Assembly: GCA_026391715.1 (NCBI GenBank)
Contig: JAPLDO010000089.1
Coordinates: 1-35,580 of the forward strand
Reading direction: 5' to 3'
Source: Bacteroidota bacterium
GTDB taxonomy: Bacteria; Bacteroidota; Bacteroidia; Bacteroidales; FEN-979
DNA: 35,580 nucleotides
Every line of letters begins with the position of its first letter. Position 1 is the stretch's first letter. The notes under the pieces are model-generated. The model was given only the letters and a program-made list of their open reading frames with translations. It made no database searches and was not told where the DNA came from. A program made the translations under genes and the position numbers. Below, in pieces: positions 7,409 through 32,304 of the stretch.

Positions 7409-7481
7409 TTTCTCTCTCCCGGCTTTCAGGAATCCCATAAAAACAAAACCATGAATATTTTAAAACCTGAAACCGGTGTTG

Positions 7482-8420
7482 ATGTGTGGAAAGATAAGAG
7501 GGGTTTGGATTTTACTATCATTGCTGGTAACAGTAACAATATATAGCCAGAACCTTGTTTTGAATGATAAAATGACGCTGGTCTCCCTAAAGGATTTCGT
7601 CGCGCCCGGAGTCTCGCTTATACGGTTTCGTTTTTCCCAGGATTTGGAGTATTCTTTGACATGCTCCAATGCTCTTTTTTTTAACTGGCAACAGGATAAT
7701 GGACCGGGACAAATCTCGTTTCTTCAGCGGCTGAATTATCGAACAAAGTTCAGCAATGAGCGCAATATTCAGATTACCAATGTACTCGCCCATGATCTTG
7801 GGATGCAGTTTTTTTTCGACAGTATTTCGCGATTTTACCCGGACGCCAGTACACTCGATACCAAAGTGGAAGTGAAACCGTGTCGCCGCTTCACCATTTT
7901 CTTTTCATCACGACTCGCAACGCGAATATTCAACGCTTATGATTACGCGCCGGATGATTCCGGAATCTATCAGAAAATTCTTAATTCCTCATTTCTGACG
8001 CCCCTGGTTTGTAACTTTTCTGCCGGAATAGGTTGGAATAATCCACGATTTGCCGTGATAAATATTGGACTGTCAGGAGCTAAGCTCACCTACGTGTGGA
8101 ATAAAGACATTTATACTCAACTAAAGGTTGATAAATTTTTTGGCGTACCCGCAAACAAAGACGTCTATTTTGAATATGGTTTAACGGCGCAGATCGTGAT
8201 TGATCAGAATTTTCTGAAGCGCGTTCATTGGAATTGCGACATGCTGGTTTTTAAAAACTTCGAGAAACCTATTGATTTGACTGTCAAAAATCTGATTGAA
8301 ATTAAAATCAATAAATTCATTCGGGGATCCATTCAAACAAAATTATTATACGAGGAAGAGGTAAGCCGGCGACTTCAGATTGAAAACCTGATATCAGTCG
8401 GTTTCTGTGTTAAATTATAG
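7482..8420 (+). CDS. Probable outer-membrane beta-barrel protein, DUF3078-like
   Basis: The protein (312 residues from ATG at 7482) has a signal peptide MCGKIRGVWILLSLLVTVTIYSQ and then alternating hydrophobic beta-strands. The order of blocks, for example DLEYSLTCSNALFFNWQ (strand and turn), NVLAHDLGMQFF and the C-terminal KNLIEIKINKFIRGSIQTK followed by VGFCVKL, resembles DUF3078 proteins, which are Bacteroidetes outer-membrane barrels of unknown function. The open frame extends to a GTG at 7476, but ATG at 7482 is the natural start. The terminal aromatic/hydrophobic residue expected for barrel insertion is replaced by Leu. Function is unknown; the DUF3078 assignment is moderate. Confidence 0.65.
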   Translation: MCGKIRGVWILLSLLVTVTIYSQNLVLNDKMTLVSLKDFVAPGVSLIRFRFSQDLEYSLTCSNALFFNWQQDNGPGQISFLQRLNYRTKFSNERNIQITNVLAHDLGMQFFFDSISRFYPDASTLDTKVEVKPCRRFTIFFSSRLATRIFNAYDYAPDDSGIYQKILNSSFLTPLVCNFSAGIGWNNPRFAVINIGLSGAKLTYVWNKDIYTQLKVDKFFGVPANKDVYFEYGLTAQIVIDQNFLKRVHWNCDMLVFKNFEKPIDLTVKNLIEIKINKFIRGSIQTKLLYEEEVSRRLQIENLISVGFCVKL

Positions 8421-8479: not shown

Positions 8480-11400
8480 ATGTACAAAATCTCGAAACAT
8501 CCGATTATCGAAATCCCTGATGTTGAAAAATCTGTTTTTCTTTTTGACGGACAGTCCGTTACCGGTGAAAAAGGATTCACAATCGCGGCAGCTTTACATC
8601 AGGCGGGTTTTCCCGTTCACAGTCACAGTCTGACTAACCGCGAACGCAGCCTCGAATGTGGTATTGGCAAATGTGGCGCCTGTGAAATGGTGGTTGACGG
8701 ACAGATCAAACGCATCTGCATTACCACTGTTGACGGCGTTAAAGAGGTGAAGGAAATCCCGCCCGACTATTCTCCTTATGCAGCCCCGGTTAAAAAAGAC
8801 ATTCCGATTAATGTTTACAGAACATCGGTTGCAATCATTGGAGCCGGTCCCGCCGGGCTTGCCGCCCGCGAAGAACTTAACAAACATAAGGTTTCCAACA
8901 TCGTAATTGACAATAATGATAAAATCGGCGGGCAGTTTCTCATGCAAACCCACCAGTTCTTCTTTTTCGAGAAAGAGCAGAAATTTGGCGGTATGCGCGG
9001 CTTCGACATTGCAAAAACACTTGCCGGCGACAGTCATGAAGGAATTTTTCTCAACTCCACTGTTTGGGATATTCTTGAAGGCGGCAGAATCGCCATAAAA
9101 AATATTCGTTCCGGCGAAATCTATTTTGTTGACGCCGAATATCTCATTGTAGCTACCGGCGCTGTGCCGTTCATGCCTGCTTTTGAGAACGACGACCTTC
9201 CGGGTGTATATACCGCCGCCGTTGTTCAGAAAATGATGAACTCTGAACTGACGCTTCTGGGAAAAAACATCCTAACCGTTGGCGCCGGAAATATCGGATA
9301 CCTTACATCTTACCAGTTGATGCAGGCAGGCGCGCGGGTTACAGCCATTCTCGAAGCAATGCCGTGCGAAGGCGGTTTCCCTGTCCAGGCAAACCGGGTA
9401 AGGCGTCTCGGAATCCCTGTCCTCACCTCACACATCCTGCTGAAAGCCATTCCAAATGAAAACCACAACGGCATAATTGGCGCGGTTGTAGCCGAATGTA
9501 AAAACTTCAAACCCATTCCGGGTACAGAGAAAATATTAGAAGGAATTGACGCCATCAATATCTGCACCGGACTTGTCCAGGACGATCAATTGCTCATCAA
9601 AGGCAACGAGATTTTCGGTCGCCGTTGCTTCGGCGCCGGCGATGCAATAAGAATTGGTGAGGGAACAAGCGCTGTGCTCCGAGGTAAACAAGCTGCTTTT
9701 GATGTTCTTCAGGAGATGGGCGAACGGTTTGATTACGACGAATTTCTTTCATTATCTAAAGAATACATTGATTCGCAGCAACACCCCGTAAGAGTGATCC
9801 GGGAACCTTACCAGCCATCGCCGGAACGAATGAATGAGAAAGGATTTGTTCTTATTGACTGCCTTTACGGATTTGCCTGTAATCCCTGCGCCTTTGCCTG
9901 TCCTCACGGCGCAATCACAAAGTCGTCAACCAGTACCGTTCCCGAAATTGATTTTCAAAAGTGCATCGGATGCATGGATTGTGTTTACCAGTGTCCAGGA
10001 CTTGCGATTTTTGGCTACAATCTAAAAAAGAACTGGCTTTTTTTGCCGATTGAATATGAGGCGGAGGAGAAAGCAGAATGTTTTCTTGTTGATAACTTTG
10101 GAAAGATTCTTGGCGAAGGAGTTATTGAAAAGATACTCCGGAAACCCAATAAAACAAATATTGCCCGCGTAAAATCGCTCACTCTGCACGGAGAGCGGTT
10201 AAGTCAGGCGCGTGGTTTCATTGTAAAGGAGAACTATCCCAAACCGGTTAGTTTCAATCCTTACCAGACCGTGGCAAAGGAGGCTACTTATGTTTGCCAC
10301 TGCGACGATGTAACCCTCGAAGAGATTCTCGAAACAATCGGCGATCGTAAATTTATCTCAGTTGACGAAGTGAAGCATACAACCCGGCTGGGGATGGGCG
10401 CCTGCCGCGGGAAACGTTGCATCAAGCGGTTAAAATCAACTCTTTCGGGCTCCGGTATCTCCATTGTAGGCGAACCCACGCCACGCGGACCGCTGTCGAA
10501 TCAGGTCGCAATGGGCGAGCTTTATCCCCGGCTTGTGCATGAAAACGTTATTACCGGTATAAATGGGAAAAAACCGGAAAAAATTAAAGTGAAATCACTC
10601 GTCGCAGGCGGCGGAATTGGCGGGAGCGCGCTTTTCCGTTACCTTGCCGAAGCTGGTATGGCGCCGGTATTGATCAACTTCGGGCGCGGCGCTTCGTGGC
10701 GAAATATTGCAGGAGGTCGTCCGAATTTCTCCATTCCTGAACTTTCCGATATTGCAACCCATAACCACGAGATTTTCAAGGATCTTCAGAAAATTCACAA
10801 TATTGACTACCGCCCGATTCTTTATGTGACTTTTGCGCACGACGAAACAATGTACAGGGCGCTAACTGAATCAATGTCATGGTCGGATGCCTTTATGGTT
10901 GATCCGAAAGATTTTGTAAAGGAAATATCGCCCCGGATCAATCCTGAACTGACAACTTATCAGTCGGCGTTGATAACGCGCAATTGCTGGCAGGCAACCC
11001 CCGGAAGAGTCATTGATCTTATCAGGCAAATGGGAATCGGTAATGGCGGCAAAGTTGAAGAGGATTGCAAACTTATTGACGTAAATAAATCCGGCAACAG
11101 CTACTTTGTGCTGGTTCAGAACCATCAGCATGATTACGTGGAATATGAAACGGATATTTTTATCAATGCAATGGGTCCCGAAGGCGATAAATTTGCGCGA
11201 CAGCTTGGTATTGAAACCGGACTGTTCCCAATTAAACATCAGGCGTTTATAACGCGTCGTTTGCCCATGCTTGGCAAAGCCGGGCTGCCATTGCCTATGC
11301 TTATTGACCGGCGCCGTTACAAAGGCTTCACCGCCGTTTACGGACAACAGCTTGCCGAAACCGGACAGATTATCGGTTGCGCTTCTCCTGCAATAGAACC

Positions 11401-11713
11401 GATGGAGGCAGATAAAAACATCAAAATCAACTCGCAGGATTTTGTTGAAATTGCTTCGGAAATCTTTACCAACTGGATTCCTGAGCTTTCTTCAGTCGGC
11501 TTTCAGGCAGTTTGGGCTGGCTATTATGTTGAGCCGCGCATGATTATTGACGCCGAACTTGGATTGTTTCTGGGTTTGCGAGGACAAGGTTTCATGCTGG
11601 GCCAATACCTTGCGAAAATTTTTGTGGATAAACTCCTGGGCAAACCTGCCCCATCCTATTTCGACAGGCTGAAATTAAGTGGGGATGGGATGTTGGAAAA
11701 AGCGTTTAAATAG
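8480..11713 (+). CDS. Five-module FAD/Fe-S oxidoreductase (HcnABC / dye-linked proline dehydrogenase-like fusion)
   Basis: This 1077-residue chain contains, in order: a [2Fe-2S] domain with Cys60, 65, 68 and 80 (GIGKCGACEM), as in sarcosine oxidase alpha and HcnA; a pyridine-nucleotide oxidoreductase with FAD motif GAGPAG (121-126) and second dinucleotide motif GAGNIG (268-273); a ferredoxin domain with two cluster motifs, Cys461/467/470/474 and Cys495/498/501/505; a BFD-type [2Fe-2S] site with Cys606/608/642/647; and a second FAD oxidoreductase of the DAO (glycine oxidase/HcnC) type with GGGIGG at 710-715. These are normally separate subunits in hydrogen cyanide synthase, opine oxidase or archaeal dye-linked L-proline dehydrogenase. 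The C-terminal DAO module would oxidise an amino or imino acid and pass electrons through the clusters to the first flavin. A proline or hydroxyproline-like substrate is suggested only by the adjacent proline dehydrogenase. No signal peptide; cytosolic. Confidence 0.85.
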   Translation: MYKISKHPIIEIPDVEKSVFLFDGQSVTGEKGFTIAAALHQAGFPVHSHSLTNRERSLECGIGKCGACEMVVDGQIKRICITTVDGVKEVKEIPPDYSPYAAPVKKDIPINVYRTSVAIIGAGPAGLAAREELNKHKVSNIVIDNNDKIGGQFLMQTHQFFFFEKEQKFGGMRGFDIAKTLAGDSHEGIFLNSTVWDILEGGRIAIKNIRSGEIYFVDAEYLIVATGAVPFMPAFENDDLPGVYTAAVVQKMMNSELTLLGKNILTVGAGNIGYLTSYQLMQAGARVTAILEAMPCEGGFPVQANRVRRLGIPVLTSHILLKAIPNENHNGIIGAVVAECKNFKPIPGTEKILEGIDAINICTGLVQDDQLLIKGNEIFGRRCFGAGDAIRIGEGTSAVLRGKQAAFDVLQEMGERFDYDEFLSLSKEYIDSQQHPVRVIREPYQPSPERMNEKGFVLIDCLYGFACNPCAFACPHGAITKSSTSTVPEIDFQKCIGCMDCVYQCPGLAIFGYNLKKNWLFLPIEYEAEEKAECFLVDNFGKILGEGVIEKILRKPNKTNIARVKSLTLHGERLSQARGFIVKENYPKPVSFNPYQTVAKEATYVCHCDDVTLEEILETIGDRKFISVDEVKHTTRLGMGACRGKRCIKRLKSTLSGSGISIVGEPTPRGPLSNQVAMGELYPRLVHENVITGINGKKPEKIKVKSLVAGGGIGGSALFRYLAEAGMAPVLINFGRGASWRNIAGGRPNFSIPELSDIATHNHEIFKDLQKIHNIDYRPILYVTFAHDETMYRALTESMSWSDAFMVDPKDFVKEISPRINPELTTYQSALITRNCWQATPGRVIDLIRQMGIGNGGKVEEDCKLIDVNKSGNSYFVLVQNHQHDYVEYETDIFINAMGPEGDKFARQLGIETGLFPIKHQAFITRRLPMLGKAGLPLPMLIDRRRYKGFTAVYGQQLAETGQIIGCASPAIEPMEADKNIKINSQDFVEIASEIFTNWIPELSSVGFQAVWAGYYVEPRMIIDAELGLFLGLRGQGFMLGQYLAKIFVDKLLGKPAPSYFDRLKLSGDGMLEKAFK

Positions 11714-11738: not shown

Positions 11739-12650
11739 TCACCCTCCAACAAACAACGCCTTGATAATATGCGTTGCCATCTTCGGATTTTCTTTCAGCC
11801 GGCGGGTTGAATAGCCAAACCAGTCCTTGCCAAATGGCACATAAACACGCATTGTGTGACCTTTATCAACAATAGTTTTCCGCAACTCGGGTGTGACGCC
11901 GTACAGCATCTGAAATTCATATTTATTCTGAGGGGTCTTATATTTTTCAATCAACCTGTAAGCGCCGTCAACAAGTTGCTTGTCGTGGGTAGCAATGGCA
12001 GGATAAAAACCATTTTGAAGCATATATTCAAGGTCATTAAGGTAATGATCATTGATCTCCTGGTATTTCTTATATGCAATCGCTTCATGTTCAACATAAA
12101 TTCCTTTGCAAAGTCTGAAGTTCACAGGCGTTTCCAACCTATTCAGATAGCTAAGGTTGGTCAGGTCATTCAGCGTGCGCTTCATGTAGGCTTGCACCAC
12201 TAGTCCGACATGCTTTGGAAATTCGGCATGCAATCTTCTGAAAAGATTGATTTCCATGTCGGTACACTGAGAATCCTCCATGTCAATCCGAACAAAATTG
12301 CGATATCCTGCCGCTTTTGCAATAATATCGCGGATATTCCGGTAACAAGCCTCTTCATCAATCAACAACCCAAAACTGGTTGGCTTTAACGAATAATTGC
12401 CATCAATCTTCTCCGTTTCGATCCGATCAATTATATTCAGATACGCCTGTTTGTTTTCATTTGCCTGATCAAGCCGTGTGATAAACTCGCCAAGGAGGTC
12501 TATCGTAATTTTTATCCCTTTCGCATTGAGCTCCTTGCATACCTTCACGGCGGCGTCAAGAGTTTCGCCGGCAATGTATTTTCGCGAAAACACCCATACC
12601 AGCTTTTTCGGCGTCAAAGGGAGTATTTTTGTAATCAATTGGTTGATCAT
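11739..12650 (-). CDS. Proline dehydrogenase (stand-alone, TIM-barrel)
   Basis: The enzyme oxidises L-proline to pyrroline-5-carboxylate with FAD. The 303-residue protein carries the family motifs in order: FVRIDMEDS (about 138-146), NFRLCKGIY (about 196), ATHDKQLVD (about 239), YEFQMLYGV (about 263) and RVYVPFGKDWFGYSTRRLKENP near the end, which includes the Arg pair that binds the proline carboxylate. It is a monofunctional form with no P5C dehydrogenase domain, and no P5C dehydrogenase gene lies in the window. It is tail-to-tail with the large oxidoreductase (25-bp gap) and divergent from the DUF177 operon. Confidence 0.93.
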   Translation of the reverse strand: MINQLITKILPLTPKKLVWVFSRKYIAGETLDAAVKVCKELNAKGIKITIDLLGEFITRLDQANENKQAYLNIIDRIETEKIDGNYSLKPTSFGLLIDEEACYRNIRDIIAKAAGYRNFVRIDMEDSQCTDMEINLFRRLHAEFPKHVGLVVQAYMKRTLNDLTNLSYLNRLETPVNFRLCKGIYVEHEAIAYKKYQEINDHYLNDLEYMLQNGFYPAIATHDKQLVDGAYRLIEKYKTPQNKYEFQMLYGVTPELRKTIVDKGHTMRVYVPFGKDWFGYSTRRLKENPKMATHIIKALFVGG

Positions 12651-15832: not shown

Positions 15833-18800
15833 ATGATTATGAGAAAATTAGTACTGATTATTTCAGCGATGATTTTGTGGTTGGGAGTATTTTCACAAGG
15901 CACTCTCCCATACAACGATGATTTTGAAAGCTATACGACCGGTGGCTTTCTTGCAGTTCAAAGCCCCCTGTGGTGGACCACATGGAGCAACTTACCCGGA
16001 TCAGCCGAAGACGGTCAGATCAGCACAGCCTTTGCCCACAGCGGAACCAAATCGGTTCTTTGTGATGAAGTCCCTTCTCCTGCAACTGATCAGATTTGGA
16101 AACTTGGAAACAAAACAACCGGAGCTTATGACGTTAAATGGTGGATGTATATTGAAACCGGCAAATGCGGTTACTTTAACATTCAGCATTTCCAGTCGCC
16201 AGGCACTGAATATGCTTGTGAAATTTATTTTCGCACAAGCGGCGCGGGTGAACTTTTAGCCGGAAGCGCTACTCCTTTCGCTTTTACTTATCCAAAATCT
16301 ACCTGGTTTGAGGTTATCAATAAAATAGATCTTGACGCCGACCTTATTAAACTCTATGTAAACGGCATTTTAGTGCATGAATGGCCATTTCATTATCAGG
16401 CTGGCAGCACCACAGGCACCAAACAACTTGGAGGTATTGACTTGTATGCGGGAGCCAAAACCGGCACTGGTGAATTACCCAAATTCTTTTTCGATGACGC
16501 CTCTTACGTAGCGTTTGTTGCGCCAACTGATCCAATTATAAGCGTGGCTCCTACCAGTCTCTCCGCTACACTTGCAACTGGTCAGACACAGGTTAAGCAG
16601 CTTACAGTTGCAAATACTGGCGTTGCAAACCTTATCTTCAATACAAGTATTATTTTAAATTCTGATGCGCCGGGCGTAAACCAGGTTGCAATGATTTCAA
16701 ATCCGAGCCGCCAGTCTTCAATGTCGCTGAGCAATTGCTATGCTTCTCCCAATTCGACGCCTTCCGCCCCGAAAACTAAAACCGATGCGCCTGGCGCGAC
16801 TGCCATTTTACATTATGATGGCGATAATTCTTCGGCAATCGGATGGAATTCGCCGCCAATAACTATCACTGTTGCAGCAAGGTTTCCAAATGCCATGACA
16901 TTACCGGTTGCAGGTATGAACCTTGTTTCTGTTGATGTTTATATTAATGCGCTTAATACCACCGGAAGCAATTTGATGACTGTGAAAGTATATGGTATGG
17001 GCACTACTTATGAACCAGGTCCTGTACTCAGTTCGCAAACTTTTACTCCGGCTGGCGCAGCATGGGAAAATGTCGTCCTTACTACTCCTGTCCCGATGAC
17101 CGGTCAGGATATTTGGATTGGATACCAGTTTACACAAACCGACGCAGGAATCTATATTCCAGGTACAGATGCGGGACCAAACGATCCCAACGGCGATTTT
17201 CTTAGCAGCGGCGTTGGCTGGTCACATCTTTCAAACAATCCGCTTCTTCTTCGTAACTGGAACATTCGCGGCAACCTCGACGGTACGCCATTCCCTCAGT
17301 GGGTTTCAGTTGCGCCACTCTCCGGAACTGTTACCCCTGGCGGCAATCAGGTTCTCGATGTAACTTTTAACGCTGCCAACCTTGCGCAAGGCAGTTATCA
17401 AGGAGTTATCCGCATCCTGTGCAATGACCCGGTAACGCCACAGGTTGATGTTCCTGTTACATTAACCGTTGTTGCTATAAATTGCCCGTTACCCACTGGT
17501 CTTGCAGCAACCAATATCACTAACTCAGGCGCTTCAATAGGATGGACCGGCGCGCCAATGGTTCAAATTGATTATGGCTCTGTTGGTCATGCCGCCGGAA
17601 CCGGAACTATTATTCCAGGCGTTGTCACCAATCCGTATGGTTTAACGGGGTTAAATTCCCTCACCTCATACCATGTTTATGTACGACAGGATTGCGGCTC
17701 GGGCGTTTTCAGCCCCTGGGCAGGACCAATAACGGTTACAACTCTGGAACAATATACAACCACAGTTTATCCATTTAACGTTACCGATGGCACCGGTTAT
17801 ATAACAAATGGCTCCTTCCTGAAAAAAGGTCCCTGGATGAATGCTTCTGCAACTGTTAACGATACTTCAGGACGTGGATATGTAAAATTCGACATTTCAA
17901 GCTTGCCGGTTAATGCAATTATTACCAAGGCAACTCTGAACTATTACTATTTTGGCGGAGTTGGAACATCTACTGCCGTCAATGGTATATATTCACTTGC
18001 CAACGATCCGGTTACAACCTCAGGCGCAATTCTGCACTCCGATTGCGGAGATGGTGCGCCGTCGTGGTCCGGCACATGGACAGGAACTCCTCCGCTATGG
18101 TTTAATTCAACATTAAATGCCATTGGTAATGGTTATATTACCGACCAGTTAGCGGCAGGTTGGGCTGGTTTTGGTTTCACGAGAACATCCACTTCGTTAT
18201 TCAGGTTTTCAGGTTATAATGACGCCACCCACAAACCGAATTTGCAGATTGAATACCATGTGGCTACCACTCCTTTATTCAGCGTTTCGCCTTCTTCAAA
18301 GAATTTTGAACAGGTAAATCTTGGCATTCAGTCGCTACCTCAAATCTTTACAATAAAGAATGCAGGCATCGGAACAATCACAGTTGATGCTTTGGTTCTG
18401 GAAGGCGTTGATGCAAGCCAGTTTGTACTTACCGATGGAACAACCTATTCAAAAGTTCTTGGACCTGGAGCTTCATACACTGTGAGCGTTGTGTTTAAAC
18501 CTACATCAACAGGCGATAAAACTGCTAATCTTAGAATTACAGAAAATGAGATTGATCATTTTGTAGCCTTAACAGGTAATGGTTATCTCAACTCACCGCA
18601 GAATCTTACCGCTACGCCGGTAATAGGACCTTACGTGAATCTTACCTGGGCAGCTCCTTTACCACTTGAAGAGATTCGTTTCGACGATAATTCCGCTGAA
18701 ACATTTTACTGGATAGGCTCGCCTACAACAACCCTACAGCGGTTCTATACCAAGATTACAATACCAGCTAACGGAACACTTACAAACATTGGCGTACTGT

Positions 18801-19948
18801 CTCGCAGCTCTACTCCGACAAATTGGGAATCCATCAGTCTTTGCCCCGATAACGGAGGCATCCCTAACCTGATATCCCCGATTCAATCTTTTGCAAGCGT
18901 GCCGGTAACCTCGGCTACAGGGCAGTGGGTACTCAAATCACTCACTACGCCTCTTGCAGTTACAGCGGGACAAACTTTTTACATTGTTACCCAATGGACT
19001 GCCGGCAGCACTGTTGGACCAACTGTTGGCACCGACACATACAGCAACCATTACCGTTGCAGCTACTCATCAAATGGAGGAGCTATCTGGGTTACTTTCC
19101 CATATAACCTGATGATGCGCGCATACATGACAGTTCCCGGCGATAACAGTTCCAATGAAGCGATTGTTCTCACTTCGGGAAATGAGGTGGAAGGAATGCA
19201 GAATTTACCAACTTTGAATATTGCCGCAGAACCTAAACCCATAATCCACCAGCTTAGTTTTACAGCGCCTGCCATTCTGATGCCGTCCAATCCTAACCGG
19301 TCATTTACTAATTACACGCTGCACCGCGGTACTGTTTCCGGAACCTATACAACTACCGTCACCGGTATTTCAGGTACTACTTACCAGGATATTACCACAG
19401 CCCCAACCACGCTTTACTATTATATGGTTTCTGCTCTTTATTCCAATGGCGTTGCCAACTCCAACGAAGTTAACGTAACAACGTTTGAAACCTGTCCTGT
19501 TCCAACTGCGCTCACCGCAACGGGCATTTCCACCATTTCAGCCAATCTGGGCTGGAATCCCAATGGCACTGCCGAATGGGCAATTGAATGGGGTCCTGCA
19601 GGTTTTATTCAGGGTCAGGGAATAATGATTCCCAATACCACGTTAAACCCATATACCCTTAACCAACTATCGCCCGGAACATCTTATAGTTTTTATATCC
19701 GCAGTATTTGTGGCGGCGGTTTGTTCAGTTCGTGGGCTGTCCATACACCTTTGCCACGCTGTGTCCAAGTTTTCCGGCTCCTATCTCCGAGAATTTTGAA
19801 CTCGCCACTTTCCCACCTGCATGCTGGAGTAAAAGCCTCGGCACACAGGAATGGACGCGTTCAACAGACGCCAGCGGATATGGTATTGGCGCTGCCTCTG
19901 CCTTCGCCGATTTTTTCAATTTTGAATTGGCTACGCCTTTTGACCTGA
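15833..19948 (+). CDS. Giant T9SS-exported surface protein, N-terminal part (frameshifted)
   Basis: A signal peptide (MRKLVLIISAMILWLGVFSQG) is followed by: a concanavalin/LamG-like domain (about 25-230, ending in a FFFDDASYVAF block); Ig-like segments with ISVAPTSLSATLATGQTQ (about 237) and WVSVAPLSGTVTPGGNQ that frame an inserted domain; an Fn3 domain (LPTGLAATNITNSGASIGW); a beta-rich carbohydrate-binding-like domain (SGRGYVKFDISSLP); an ASPM/hydin-type domain (FSVSPSSKNFEQVNLG); and further Fn3 domains ending SYSFYIRSICGGGLFSSWAV. After about 19740 the reading frame turns to non-homologous sequence and stops at 19948. The rest of the protein continues in another frame from 19741. The intact product would have about 1888 residues. 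It is presumably attached to or released from the cell surface and may bind polysaccharide or mediate adhesion. A second ATG at 15839 is an equally good start. Confidence 0.85.
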   Translation: MIMRKLVLIISAMILWLGVFSQGTLPYNDDFESYTTGGFLAVQSPLWWTTWSNLPGSAEDGQISTAFAHSGTKSVLCDEVPSPATDQIWKLGNKTTGAYDVKWWMYIETGKCGYFNIQHFQSPGTEYACEIYFRTSGAGELLAGSATPFAFTYPKSTWFEVINKIDLDADLIKLYVNGILVHEWPFHYQAGSTTGTKQLGGIDLYAGAKTGTGELPKFFFDDASYVAFVAPTDPIISVAPTSLSATLATGQTQVKQLTVANTGVANLIFNTSIILNSDAPGVNQVAMISNPSRQSSMSLSNCYASPNSTPSAPKTKTDAPGATAILHYDGDNSSAIGWNSPPITITVAARFPNAMTLPVAGMNLVSVDVYINALNTTGSNLMTVKVYGMGTTYEPGPVLSSQTFTPAGAAWENVVLTTPVPMTGQDIWIGYQFTQTDAGIYIPGTDAGPNDPNGDFLSSGVGWSHLSNNPLLLRNWNIRGNLDGTPFPQWVSVAPLSGTVTPGGNQVLDVTFNAANLAQGSYQGVIRILCNDPVTPQVDVPVTLTVVAINCPLPTGLAATNITNSGASIGWTGAPMVQIDYGSVGHAAGTGTIIPGVVTNPYGLTGLNSLTSYHVYVRQDCGSGVFSPWAGPITVTTLEQYTTTVYPFNVTDGTGYITNGSFLKKGPWMNASATVNDTSGRGYVKFDISSLPVNAIITKATLNYYYFGGVGTSTAVNGIYSLANDPVTTSGAILHSDCGDGAPSWSGTWTGTPPLWFNSTLNAIGNGYITDQLAAGWAGFGFTRTSTSLFRFSGYNDATHKPNLQIEYHVATTPLFSVSPSSKNFEQVNLGIQSLPQIFTIKNAGIGTITVDALVLEGVDASQFVLTDGTTYSKVLGPGASYTVSVVFKPTSTGDKTANLRITENEIDHFVALTGNGYLNSPQNLTATPVIGPYVNLTWAAPLPLEEIRFDDNSAETFYWIGSPTTTLQRFYTKITIPANGTLTNIGVLSRSSTPTNWESISLCPDNGGIPNLISPIQSFASVPVTSATGQWVLKSLTTPLAVTAGQTFYIVTQWTAGSTVGPTVGTDTYSNHYRCSYSSNGGAIWVTFPYNLMMRAYMTVPGDNSSNEAIVLTSGNEVEGMQNLPTLNIAAEPKPIIHQLSFTAPAILMPSNPNRSFTNYTLHRGTVSGTYTTTVTGISGTTYQDITTAPTTLYYYMVSALYSNGVANSNEVNVTTFETCPVPTALTATGISTISANLGWNPNGTAEWAIEWGPAGFIQGQGIMIPNTTLNPYTLNQLSPGTSYSFYIRSICGGGLFSSWAVHTPLPRCVQVFRLLSPRILNSPLSHLHAGVKASAHRNGRVQQTPADMVLALPLPSPIFSILNWLRLLT
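19736..19745 (+). other. Single-base frameshift joining two halves of one gene
   Basis: Upstream frame 2 reads ...LFSSWAV up to 19740; downstream frame 1 reads PYTFATLCPSFPAPISENFE from 19741. Adding one base here, for example a third C in GTCC, restores SSWAVPYTFATLCPSFPAPISENF, a phrase typical of the Fn3-to-MAM linker in these proteins, and makes the total length 1889 codons. It may be a real mutation or a sequencing error. Confidence 0.85.
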
Positions 19949-21498
19949 TGACGCTGAATTTCGACGCCACCTCTTTGTATATCCCGGTTTTGAAATTTGA
20001 CTATGCTTATGCCGCCTATTCCGCTTCATATATAGATTCGCTGAAAATCTATTATTCTATCAACAATGGAGTATCCTACACCTTGCTTGCAGGCATGGCT
20101 GGCGGACCTTCGGGAATACTTAATACAGGCGGAACCACTACATCTGCATTTATTCCAACAGCCAATCAATGGGCAACTTATTCCATACCGATACCTGTCG
20201 GGGCAAATATTATCCGCTTTTCAGGTGTTAGCGCCTGGGGTAACAACTTGTATCTCGATAATGTAAAGATAGAGGGTTCCGTTCTTCCTATCGGAATGAC
20301 AGCTCTTGTTACCAATAATTCGTGCGCATTTTCCTGCGATGGCGCTATTGATCTAACAGTAACAGGCGGAGTATCGCCTTTTACTTATATTTGGAGCTGT
20401 GGCAGCACAACGCAAGATCTAACTTCAATTTGTGGAGGCATTTACTATGTTACTGTTACTGATGCAGCCAATTCAACGGCTACAGGAAACTGGACAGTTA
20501 TTGAGCCTTCTGAAATTATTGTATTAGGAGCGCCTTATGGTAACGTCGTAACCTGTTATGGAGGGAGCGATGGACAGCTTTCTGCAAACCCGTATGGTGG
20601 AACGCCTCCATATACCTATTTATGGAGCAACCAAGCCACTACCAGTACCATTACCGGATTACCAGCAGGACATTATTCCGTTCAGGTTACAGATTCTCAC
20701 TTTTGTTGGGGATCGAATGGTTTCATGGTTCTAGAGCCCACGGAAATCATCGTTACTGGATTGATTATGCCAGCTTCATGTCCAAACGCCGCTGACGGAA
20801 GCATTGATCTGATTGTGCTCGGTGGAACCCCCGGATATACATTCTTGTGGAGTAACGGAGCAACTACTGAGGATATCGCCGGACTTACTGCCGGATCTTA
20901 CTCGGTAACTGTTACAGATTTCAACAACTGTGTGAAAACTAAAAGCTTTACAGTTACACTTGCCTCCAATGTTTGCCCAATAATTACAGTCACCGGCAAC
21001 GTTACCGCAACTGCTTGTTATAATGCTTACGAAATAATTAATGTAGCCGGAACTCCGAACACATTTACGGTTTTTGGCGGCGGCAGCGCAACCTTTATTG
21101 CAGGTCAGAAAATCTTCTACTACGCAGGAACCAAAGTGTTATCAGGCGGTTATATGCTTGGCAAAATCGCTCCGAACGGTCCTTGGTGTTCTCCACAGAA
21201 AATTACTGAAGCTCCTGCCGGTCAGGAGGAATTGATAGCAGGTACCGGAAATGCCTTCTTCAGCATTTTCCCGAACCCGACTAACGGTAATTTCACCCTT
21301 GTACAGAAAACAGAAAAACTGTACAACAATGTTAAGGTGGAAATTTACGGTATGAATGGCGAGAAAATAATTTCCGCTTCAATGATAGGCGAGAAACAGC
21401 ATGAGTTCAAAACTGCTGATCTTCCATCGGGACTTTACTTTGTAAGAGTGGTTGCTGATAGTTATGTTGAAACCATGAAATTGGTGAAAACGAGGTAA
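19741..21498 (+). CDS. Giant T9SS-exported surface protein, C-terminal part (frameshifted)
   Basis: This part contains a MAM/cleaved-adhesin-like domain (PISENFELATFPPACW through NNLYLDNVKIEG), three SprB-type repeats (DGAIDLTVTGGVSPFTYIW, DGQLSANPYGGTPPYTYLWS and DGSIDLIVLGGTPGYTFLWS, each followed by a YSVTVTD-type strand), a short beta domain (GQKIFYYAGTKVLSGGYM) and a type A T9SS sorting domain at the end (FFSIFPNPTNGNFTLVQ ... LPSGLYFVRV ... MKLVKTR). It has no start of its own: the frame is open only back to a TTG at 19708 inside the upstream coding region. It should be read as the 3' half of the preceding gene. Confidence 0.88.
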   Translation, partial: PYTFATLCPSFPAPISENFELATFPPACWSKSLGTQEWTRSTDASGYGIGAASAFADFFNFELATPFDLMTLNFDATSLYIPVLKFDYAYAAYSASYIDSLKIYYSINNGVSYTLLAGMAGGPSGILNTGGTTTSAFIPTANQWATYSIPIPVGANIIRFSGVSAWGNNLYLDNVKIEGSVLPIGMTALVTNNSCAFSCDGAIDLTVTGGVSPFTYIWSCGSTTQDLTSICGGIYYVTVTDAANSTATGNWTVIEPSEIIVLGAPYGNVVTCYGGSDGQLSANPYGGTPPYTYLWSNQATTSTITGLPAGHYSVQVTDSHFCWGSNGFMVLEPTEIIVTGLIMPASCPNAADGSIDLIVLGGTPGYTFLWSNGATTEDIAGLTAGSYSVTVTDFNNCVKTKSFTVTLASNVCPIITVTGNVTATACYNAYEIINVAGTPNTFTVFGGGSATFIAGQKIFYYAGTKVLSGGYMLGKIAPNGPWCSPQKITEAPAGQEELIAGTGNAFFSIFPNPTNGNFTLVQKTEKLYNNVKVEIYGMNGEKIISASMIGEKQHEFKTADLPSGLYFVRVVADSYVETMKLVKTR

Positions 21499-31698: not shown

Positions 31699-32304
31699 AT
31701 GATGAAATTGACAACTTTTCCTGTCCGGACGATCAATGTGAAGAACATGACTTGCAATTGTTGCATTTATGTAATTCGCCATGAATTAGCTTTGGATGGA
31801 ATTGAACTCCATGATATTAAGCTGGGCACAATTATTCTTTCACACGACACGAAGAAAATATCCATGAAAAAGATCGAATCGATCATTGAGAGTTTTGTTT
31901 TCGAAATCATCATTAACAAGGAAAAAGTACTGGTTGAGCATATTAAGCAGGCAGTAATCGACCTGGTTCATAACTCGACCTATAATGCAATGGTTCGTAA
32001 TTCAGATTATCTTGTTGAGCGGTTCGGAATGTCATACTCCTATATATCGACCCTCTTTTCAAAACATGAAAGTAAAACTCTCGAAAAATTCACTATCCTC
32101 CATAAAATTGAGAAAGTCAAAGAACTAATAGAATATGGAGAACTTACTCTAAGTGAAATTGCATACATGATGGGATACAGCAGTGTCCAGTATCTCTCAA
32201 GCCAATTCAAGACGATAACAGGAATATCCGTAACGGAATACAAAGTGACGCCTTCACACAACAGGTCAGGTCTTGATAAATTGATCCTGGGTGAAATTTT
32301 CTAA
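31699..32304 (+). CDS. AraC-family regulator with N-terminal HMA-like metal-binding domain
   Basis: This 201-residue protein starts with a domain like heavy-metal-associated (HMA) folds: VKNMTCNCCIYVIRHEL at 14-30 carries the MTCxxC motif (Cys20, Cys23) with an additional Cys22, and the next segment GIELHDIKLGTIILS follows the HMA strand order. A linker leads to a C-terminal AraC helix-turn-helix (about 100-190) with SYSYISTLFSKHESKTLEKFTILHKIEKVKELI and LTLSEIAYMMGYSSVQYLSSQFKTITGISVTEYK. Bacteroidetes use such HMA-AraC proteins near metal efflux or copper genes, so a role as metal-sensing activator is likely, but no such gene is adjacent here. It follows the truncated kinase. Confidence 0.85.
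   Translation: MMKLTTFPVRTINVKNMTCNCCIYVIRHELALDGIELHDIKLGTIILSHDTKKISMKKIESIIESFVFEIIINKEKVLVEHIKQAVIDLVHNSTYNAMVRNSDYLVERFGMSYSYISTLFSKHESKTLEKFTILHKIEKVKELIEYGELTLSEIAYMMGYSSVQYLSSQFKTITGISVTEYKVTPSHNRSGLDKLILGEIF

Follow-up and report, generated by a model that had tools for sequence, protein, structure and literature searches.

A putative single-chain amino or imino acid dehydrogenase with five redox domains in the Bacteroidales

Heteromeric dehydrogenases of the OdhABC and HcnABC type are built from three kinds of subunit, in which gamma is a Fer2_4 domain, alpha is a flavoprotein with a BFD domain, and beta is a DAO domain (PMC4575208). Opine dehydrogenase holds two flavin adenine dinucleotides (FAD), one flavin mononucleotide (FMN), and one [2Fe-2S] cluster in three subunits, with no [4Fe-4S] cluster named in the description of its prosthetic groups, and an Arg-X-Trp motif in the beta subunits of the superfamily has been put forward as the FMN site (PMC4575208). 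The dye-linked L-proline dehydrogenase PDH1 of Pyrococcus horikoshii (PDB 1y56) likewise has separate alpha and beta subunits. In the present study, a contig of 35,580 nucleotides from a Bacteroidota bacterium of the order Bacteroidales (GCA_026391715.1, JAPLDO010000089.1; the window) was analysed, in which a single gene (8480..11713, + strand) combines PDH1-alpha-like and PDH1-beta-like parts with a dicluster ferredoxin. Its product is very probably a single-chain amino or imino acid dehydrogenase, whatever the substrate. That it is a soluble, self-contained flavin and iron–sulphur (Fe-S) dehydrogenase, acting most probably on L-proline and passing electrons to nicotinamide adenine dinucleotide (NAD+), is proposed tentatively, the statement as a whole being held at a little under even confidence.

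The gene starts with ATG, encodes 1077 amino acids (aa), and is present once in the source genome. The initial annotation, which was made from the letters alone, had read it as one polypeptide with five redox modules; the open reading frame and every motif named there were recovered at the same residues, and the five domains follow one another in the order described. A Pfam search identified a Fer2_4 [2Fe-2S] domain (residues 20–85, 8537..8734; 39.7 bits against a cut-off of 22.8), in which the spacing C60-x4-C65-x2-C68-x11-C80 fits the gamma-subunit motif C-X4-C-X2-C-X11/12-C (PMC4575208). This is followed by a PDH1-alpha-like flavoprotein part at approximately residues 116–405 (8825..9694), based on Pfam (Pyr_redox_2, residues 116–295; 70.0 against 26.1), phmmer matches to 1y56_A, and conservation. 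It contains GAGPAG (121–126, FAD), GAGNIG (268–273, the second dinucleotide motif), E292, and G387-D388. A dicluster ferredoxin insert with two predicted [4Fe-4S] clusters (residues 461–505, 9860..9994) is recognized by eight invariant cysteines, C461/467/470/474 and C495/498/501/505. The Fer4 models are marginally below cut-off in the query at approximately residues 460–510 (Fer4_9, 26.2 against 27; Fer4, 21.0 against 21.1), and Fer4 is above it (29.4 against 21.1) in a 63 % identical relative from a Parabacteroides distasonis plasmid. The BFD-like [2Fe-2S] domain (residues 604–653, 10289..10438; Fer2_BFD, 34.6 against 26) aligns with the C-terminal part of 1y56_A and contains C606-H-C608 and C642-RGKR-C647. 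Its spacing, C-X-C-X33-C-X4-C, differs from the published C-X-C-X15-20-C-X4-C (PMC4575208); 1y56_A itself has X31, so the published spacing may not define the group. The DAO domain (residues 707–1050, 10598..11629; 97.2 against 27.9), with GGGIGG at residues 710–715, is PDH1-beta-like by Pfam, phmmer, and Foldseek. All of these features are on the + strand. By motif, there are thus two FAD-type flavin sites and four Fe-S clusters, as annotated. No Pro_dh domain (PF01619) was found by Pfam in the fused protein; Pro_dh belongs to a separate neighbouring gene.

Conservation was assessed in an alignment of 97 sequences, consisting of the query and 96 relatives that are 57–86 % identical to it, picked at less than 84 % pairwise identity out of 147 non-redundant full-length sequences. 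All 16 predicted cluster cysteines are cysteine in 97/97 sequences, therefore the five-domain pattern is not due to chance. The query has eight further cysteines, of which C362 and C967 alone are invariant (97/97). A structure prediction of the whole chain, which the annotation had proposed as a check, was confident (AlphaFold2; mean predicted local distance difference test, pLDDT, 88.5; predicted template modelling score, pTM, 0.86), with weak spots at residues 59–63 and, in the DAO part, at residues 737–739. The top Foldseek matches to the model are SoxA (1vrq_A and 2gag_A) across the whole chain, with poor superposition (template modelling score, TM, 0.43–0.44 by target length). Third and fourth are 1y56_B (TM 0.81, 21 % identity) and 1y56_A (TM 0.77, 16 %), also by target length, with dimethylglycine dehydrogenase, D-arginine dehydrogenase, glycine oxidase, and SoxB close behind. 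In heterotetrameric sarcosine oxidase (SoxA/SoxB; PDB 1vrq and 2gag), it is SoxB that matches the DAO part; unlike SoxA, the fused chain has no aminomethyltransferase domain detectable by Pfam and scores 63.4 bits to the SoxA model TIGR01372, where the cut-off is 1164.

By sequence, the two halves are closest in the PDB to 1y56_B (phmmer E 8.3e-8) and 1y56_A (E 8.7e-15). The kinship to archaeal L-proline dehydrogenase noted in the initial annotation is therefore supported by both phmmer and Foldseek. The phmmer alignment places 1y56_A on query residues 22–268 and 597–681, reaching residue 490 of 493 in 1y56_A, and 1y56_B on the DAO part. Because the alpha subunit is aligned up to near its C-terminus and is then followed by the beta subunit, the chain is, as judged from these alignments, a PDH1-like alpha–beta fusion. 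The alpha-like part ends at residues 668–681 (10481..10522, + strand) with the fusion joint directly after it, at approximately residues 682–705, and the ferredoxin is inserted in the alpha part.

Comparison with PDH1 shows both similarities and differences. The alpha-like and beta-like folds are both matched, and the BFD domain and C-terminal stretch of alpha and the WAGYY of beta are kept. Unlike PDH1, in which the subunits are separate, the fused protein is one chain in 109 of the 113 carriers identified in the order; it has N-terminal [2Fe-2S] cysteines, which are absent from the aligned positions of 1y56_A, it has the dicluster ferredoxin insert, and at the motif level the FMN arginine has been lost. 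The place of the Arg-X-Trp motif is occupied by A1010-V1011-W1012 (11507..11515, + strand), and across the aligned fused family the arginine of this motif is replaced by alanine (94/97) or serine (3/97). It is kept in 1y56_B and in five aligned relatives from outside the family (Azospirillum, Aureimonas, Roseicitreum, Ensifer, and the Bacteroidales locus L167). As the second dinucleotide motif, 96/97 sequences have GAGNIG and 1/97 has GSGNIG, and Glu292 is invariant (97/97). In place of GAGNIG, four aligned proteobacterial relatives, HcnB and OdhA themselves not being among them, carry the GxGPL forms GNGPLN, GSGPLN, or GSGPLL. These motifs suggest that the FMN relay has been lost, that Fe-S clusters may be used instead, and that an NAD site is present. 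The flavin scheme of the initial annotation is thus retained for its two FAD-type sites, and is incomplete in having overlooked FMN, the motif for which looks lost here.

The description of the chain as carrying all five redox modules of HcnABC and proline dehydrogenase is overstated, as the ferredoxin is an addition to the scheme given for opine dehydrogenase (PMC4575208). OdhABC, D-hydroxyproline dehydrogenase (D-HypDH), and HcnABC (alpha4 beta4 gamma4) are described as built from the same modules, which are fused here as gamma–alpha–beta. In these three-subunit enzymes FMN lies at the interface of alpha and beta, with no [4Fe-4S] cluster reported in that description (PMC4575208), and the fused chain differs from them in both the Arg-X-Trp FMN motif and the three-subunit organization. 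With an extra ferredoxin, a lost FMN motif, a link with amino-acid degraders, and presence across the order, a single-chain cyanide synthase with the function of HcnABC is barely conceivable, despite the shared modules.

The fusion alone is not new, because single chains with Fer2_4, Pyr_redox_2, BFD, and DAO domains are present in Azospirillum brasilense p3 (WP_137143392.1, 984 aa) and Aureimonas sp. AU20 pAU20b (WP_244493230.1, 967 aa). These are 20–31 % identical to the query over aligned pieces, keep Arg-X-Trp, have a non-canonical second motif, and have no ferredoxin insert that could be found. The novelty claimed for a single chain therefore holds for the five-domain form and not for fusion as such: all of the modules are known and their fusion is precedented, and what is new is the presence of five modules in one chain, with the FMN motif lost and a ferredoxin gained. 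The genes for the four-domain chains (L270 4953–8967 and L271 3058–6868) adjoin genes for an amino-acid ABC transporter, a dihydropyrimidinase, and a dihydrodipicolinate synthase (DHDPS)-like protein (207.8 and 204.7 bits against a dapA cut-off of 206.15), and it is likely that the four-domain fusion has its own pathway.

The transporter and DHDPS-like gene setting of the four-domain chains presumably resembles that of hydroxyproline clusters, which raises the possibility that the five-domain chain is a D-proline or cis-4-hydroxy-D-proline dehydrogenase, like the heteromeric D-HypDH of Pseudomonas and Azospirillum. D-HypDH belongs to the same superfamily (PMC4575208). However, in a set of genomes of the order thinned to one per family by family labels (119 genomes), proline racemase/hydroxyproline epimerase (PF05544) is not associated with the fused gene, being found in 4/53 carriers and 5/66 non-carriers, and 49/53 carriers are without any. 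This substrate is therefore very unlikely.

Based on the observed domains, invariant ligands, and fold, a substrate, an acceptor, and an electron path with its direction may be inferred. A PDH1-alpha-like chain (Fer2_4, FAD flavoprotein, and BFD) would have been fused to a PDH1-beta-like DAO chain, with insertion of the dicluster ferredoxin. The FAD of the DAO domain would take a hydride from the C–N bond of the substrate, and the electrons, bypassing the interface FMN for which the motif is lost, would exit via the BFD and dicluster ferredoxin clusters to the second FAD, which would reduce NAD+ at the site of the canonical GAGNIG motif. A second port, to ferredoxin or another carrier, may be offered by the N-terminal [2Fe-2S] cluster. 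With proline as the substrate, the product would be pyrroline-5-carboxylate (P5C), to be converted to glutamate by P5C dehydrogenase (P5CDH). In its most specific form, the proposal would be an FMN-less, Fe-S-wired proline:NAD+ dehydrogenase, perhaps NAD+/ferredoxin-confurcating, which would serve anaerobic Bacteroidales alongside classical proline dehydrogenase or in its place, the ferredoxin insert having replaced the FMN relay, for quinone-independent proline catabolism. This specific form is considered rather unlikely. If true, it would explain proline use without a membrane quinone in genomes that have P5CDH and no classical proline dehydrogenase (39/295, 25 of which are carriers), and the protein would provide, from expression of a single gene, a soluble electron wire with several centres. 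The loss of the FMN arginine paired with the gain of a ferredoxin is in addition a testable case of relay replacement.

The extra dicluster ferredoxin, the canonical NAD-type motif, and the two flavins are also compatible with a reductive or confurcating enzyme, in which NADH and/or ferredoxin would drive reduction of a substrate at the DAO site, or oxidation of a substrate would be coupled to both NAD+ and ferredoxin. A relative in two other Bacteroidales genomes (L167 and L168) is relevant to this. Here, NuoG/hydrogenase-like and HdrA2/MvhD-like parts are joined, in one protein of 1290 aa, to a 29–31 % identical Fer2–flavoprotein–ferredoxin–BFD module that forms its C-terminal half, and the DAO protein, which in the L167 system keeps Arg-X-Trp, is encoded by a separate gene next to it. 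The fusion gene lies between this DAO gene and a NuoEF-like-looking gene, and together these genes could encode an amino-acid dehydrogenase complex that is linked to NADH and possibly electron-bifurcating. However, this relative is distant, and a reductive or confurcating enzyme is considered unlikely. Both loci (L167 1873–9337 and L168 2392–9853) are operon-like, the upstream gene of approximately 798–800 aa looking NuoEF-like by eye.

The fused gene was sought in 295 genomes of the order at a threshold of E ≤1e-60. There were 115 matches, two of which (G556 and G575) are 31 % relatives of a different kind, leaving 113/295 carriers. In 109 of these, the gene is a single open frame of whole or nearly whole length, 58–100 % identical and without inner stops; in G476, G563, G594, and G697 only pieces or part of the gene were seen. 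Among 41 near relatives of the source genome, 33 match at E ≤1e-3, 26 of these with E 0, and 24 are full length. In a sample of 395 genomes of the phylum, for which up to two first-look candidates were scored per genome, 142 match at E ≤1e-3; the only full-length match is in the source genome, and the best match after it has E 3.8e-7. In a contig collection, a relative is encoded in at least 579 of at least 590 pattern-matching stretches. Of the 80 contig matches listed, 78 are from Bacteroidota, the exceptions being one 'uncultured bacterium' and one Phycisphaerae contig (L085). The downstream gene of L085 clusters with genes of four other survey loci, which is weak evidence that it is mis-binned. 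An apparently split gene in L104 was rejected as a natural split, because its translation contains letters X together with a repeated stretch, which mark a scaffold gap. The initial annotation had left room for the domain order being widespread and already characterized; widespread it is, within the order, and no study of such a five-domain chain was found in the literature searched, which mostly did not cover subscription literature.

The enzyme is therefore common in the order and is also present in a named species with isolates. The plasmid record of a Parabacteroides distasonis strain has the 63 % identical copy, annotated simply as 'FAD-dependent oxidoreductase'; of 37 plasmid records with a match, no other covers at least 80 % of the query. 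On one side of this copy (L268 15001–18237) is a 138-base gene that carries the annotation Na-translocating decarboxylase subunit beta, and on the other a phage-integrase-like gene. The same record has rlmD and ppdK and may be a piece of chromosome.

The genomic neighbourhood was compared in loci with a full-length target. From 230 such loci, 83 were excluded for having less than 1.5 kb of flanking sequence on at least one side and near-duplicates (≥97 %) were then removed, leaving 134 loci in 73 lineages (80 % single linkage). No constant gene partner is present within 1 kb in these loci, which fits with an enzyme that is complete in itself. At this distance, the genes most often found are YceD (19 of the 73 lineages), a glgA-like gene (9), plsX (8), Pro_dh (6), and fabH (4). 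YceD is always downstream on the same strand and the glgA-like gene always upstream on the opposite strand. The lipid and ribosome genes look like an old shared location and not like functional partners.

In the window, the fused gene is followed by a convergent gene for a classical proline dehydrogenase (Pro_dh, PF01619; 303 aa; 11739..12650, − strand), identified by Pfam, for which the nearest NCBIfam model is the Thermus type, below its cut-off. Pro_dh is exceptional among the neighbours in that both its position and its form vary. It is within 1 kb of the fused gene in 6/73 lineages and 20/134 loci, being downstream and convergent in one lineage, the clade of the window, and upstream and divergent in five (156–335 bp apart). 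The adjacent gene is of the window type in four lineages (303–328 aa, 63–78 % identical to that of the window) and a distinct 389-aa form in two, which is 22 % identical to that of the window where aligned. On a midpoint-rooted gene tree, adjacency requires 7 changes against a mean of 18.9 for shuffled labels, therefore it is partly inherited and partly recurrent. By chance, 0.05–0.07 of the 73 lineages would be expected to have Pro_dh next door, if one of the two flanking genes is Pro_dh at 2 in 2000 to 2 in 3000. Across genomes of the order, Pro_dh open frames vary in length (approximately 303 aa, approximately 390 aa, and PutA-length, approximately 1130–1210 aa).

Just upstream of the fused gene in the window, the gene at 7476–8420 (+) scores 23 bits to DUF3078, where the cut-off is 25. 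A same-strand upstream neighbour of similar size was seen in 25 loci of the first survey, and another DUF3078-annotated gene is approximately 4 kb upstream of the fused gene in the P. distasonis record. A superoxide-dismutase-like gene, recognized by eye (L075, L079, L096, L100, and L187), lies within 1 kb in 3/73 lineages and within the flanking sequence of 8, and its orientation is not constant.

Co-occurrence was analysed in the same 295 genomes of the order, with P5CDH called by TIGR01236 at E ≤1e-100. The stratified tests include the 294 of the 295 genomes that were identified, and p values allow for relatedness by thinning only. In total, 113 genomes carry the fused gene, 178 have Pro_dh, and 174 have P5CDH. 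P5CDH is present in 95/113 carriers and 79/182 non-carriers (odds ratio, OR, 6.9, p 1.6e-12). Among genomes without Pro_dh it is in 25/37 carriers against 14/80 non-carriers (OR 9.8, p 1.9e-7), and among those with Pro_dh in 70/76 against 65/102. The thinned set supports this (42/53 against 28/66, p 7e-5), both without Pro_dh (12/19 against 8/32, p 0.009) and with it (30/34 against 20/34). In a logistic model of P5CDH on the fused gene, Pro_dh, and hutH, the term for the fused gene stays (z 5.15; thinned, z 2.62). Proline metabolism is therefore the best lead to the putative substrate, which the initial annotation had left open; this genomic association is of moderate strength.

Not every catabolic gene accompanies the fused gene, since glycerol kinase (TIGR01311, E ≤1e-150) is in 11/53 carriers and 24/66 non-carriers of the thinned set (OR 0.46, p 0.07). 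This argues against an unusual glycerol-3-phosphate dehydrogenase, which is suggested by weak matches between the DAO part and the models for type 2 glycerol-3-phosphate oxidase (21.5 bits, cut-off 460) and GlpA (18.4, cut-off 425) and is highly improbable; the GlpA model TIGR03377 gives 47.6 bits against a cut-off of 552.8.

A number of observations weigh against an L-proline:NAD+ dehydrogenase. Transfer of electrons from proline to NAD+ is uphill with respect to their potentials, and would therefore need to be pulled by removal of P5C, directed to another acceptor, or coupled to ferredoxin. Within the protein, E292 does not discriminate, as the four relatives with an odd second motif likewise carry an acid there, and the usual acid after the GxGxxG of the DAO domain, which contacts the FAD ribose, is Asn733 in 97/97 sequences. 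DAO residues 737–739 have a pLDDT of less than 50, and the DAO domain is 21 % identical to PDH1-beta, with sarcosine and glycine oxidases scoring alike in Foldseek. In the neighbourhood data, 67/73 lineages have no Pro_dh within 1 kb, and a shared old location can inflate the adjacency count. Across genomes, Pro_dh is not clearly associated with the fused gene (76/113 carriers against 102/182 non-carriers, p 0.07), and its presence was rejected as a simple predictor on this basis. The source genome has no TIGR01236 match at 1e-100, the best being 1.1e-46, below cut-off; an assembly gap is possible, because 16 of the 19 genomes of its genus have TIGR01236 over cut-off. Likewise, 12 of the 37 carriers without Pro_dh are also without TIGR01236. 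The control gene hutH, when over cut-off (best E ≤1e-165, 147 genomes), is in 79/113 carriers and 68/182 non-carriers (OR 3.9; thinned, OR 5.2), and any hutH-family match (E ≤1e-120) is in 107/113 and 111/182 (OR 11.4; thinned, OR 14.8). As hutH co-occurs about as strongly as P5CDH, the fused gene belongs to amino-acid degraders at large, and much of the P5CDH signal can be due to this shared lifestyle. The mirror model of hutH on the fused gene, Pro_dh, and P5CDH also keeps the fused gene (z 3.08; thinned, z 2.92). In thinned genomes that are Pro_dh-negative and hutH-positive, the link with P5CDH is gone (8/11 against 3/4), and in those negative for both it remains, without being significant (4/8 against 5/28, p 0.086).

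The hutH result also bears on the most serious alternative, which is that the architecture and electron path are the same and the substrate is another one, such as glycine, sarcosine, an N-alkyl or opine-like amino acid, or pipecolate, the association with proline being a by-product of an amino-acid-fermenting life. The DAO fold search, which returns proline, sarcosine, glycine, and dimethylglycine enzymes alike, is consistent with this, and BjOdhB2 groups near archaeal L-proline dehydrogenase without use of L-proline (PMC4575208). However, the adjacent Pro_dh is recurrent, in two forms and two orientations, and is specific to proline, and the link with P5CDH is retained on adjustment by logistic regression. 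Another substrate is thus a possibility to be taken seriously, and L-proline is retained as the proposed one.

Elsewhere in the window, the gene at 15833–19948 (+) encodes a large protein with HYDIN-type Ig-like and fn3 domains and overlaps by 241 bases, in a different frame, the open reading frame at 19708–21498 (+), which has SprB repeats and a Por secretion tail. A frameshift may have split a single adhesin into these two. In addition, a regulator at 31699–32304 (+) has, by eye, a CxxC heavy-metal-associated-like N-terminus and an AraC-type DNA-binding end.

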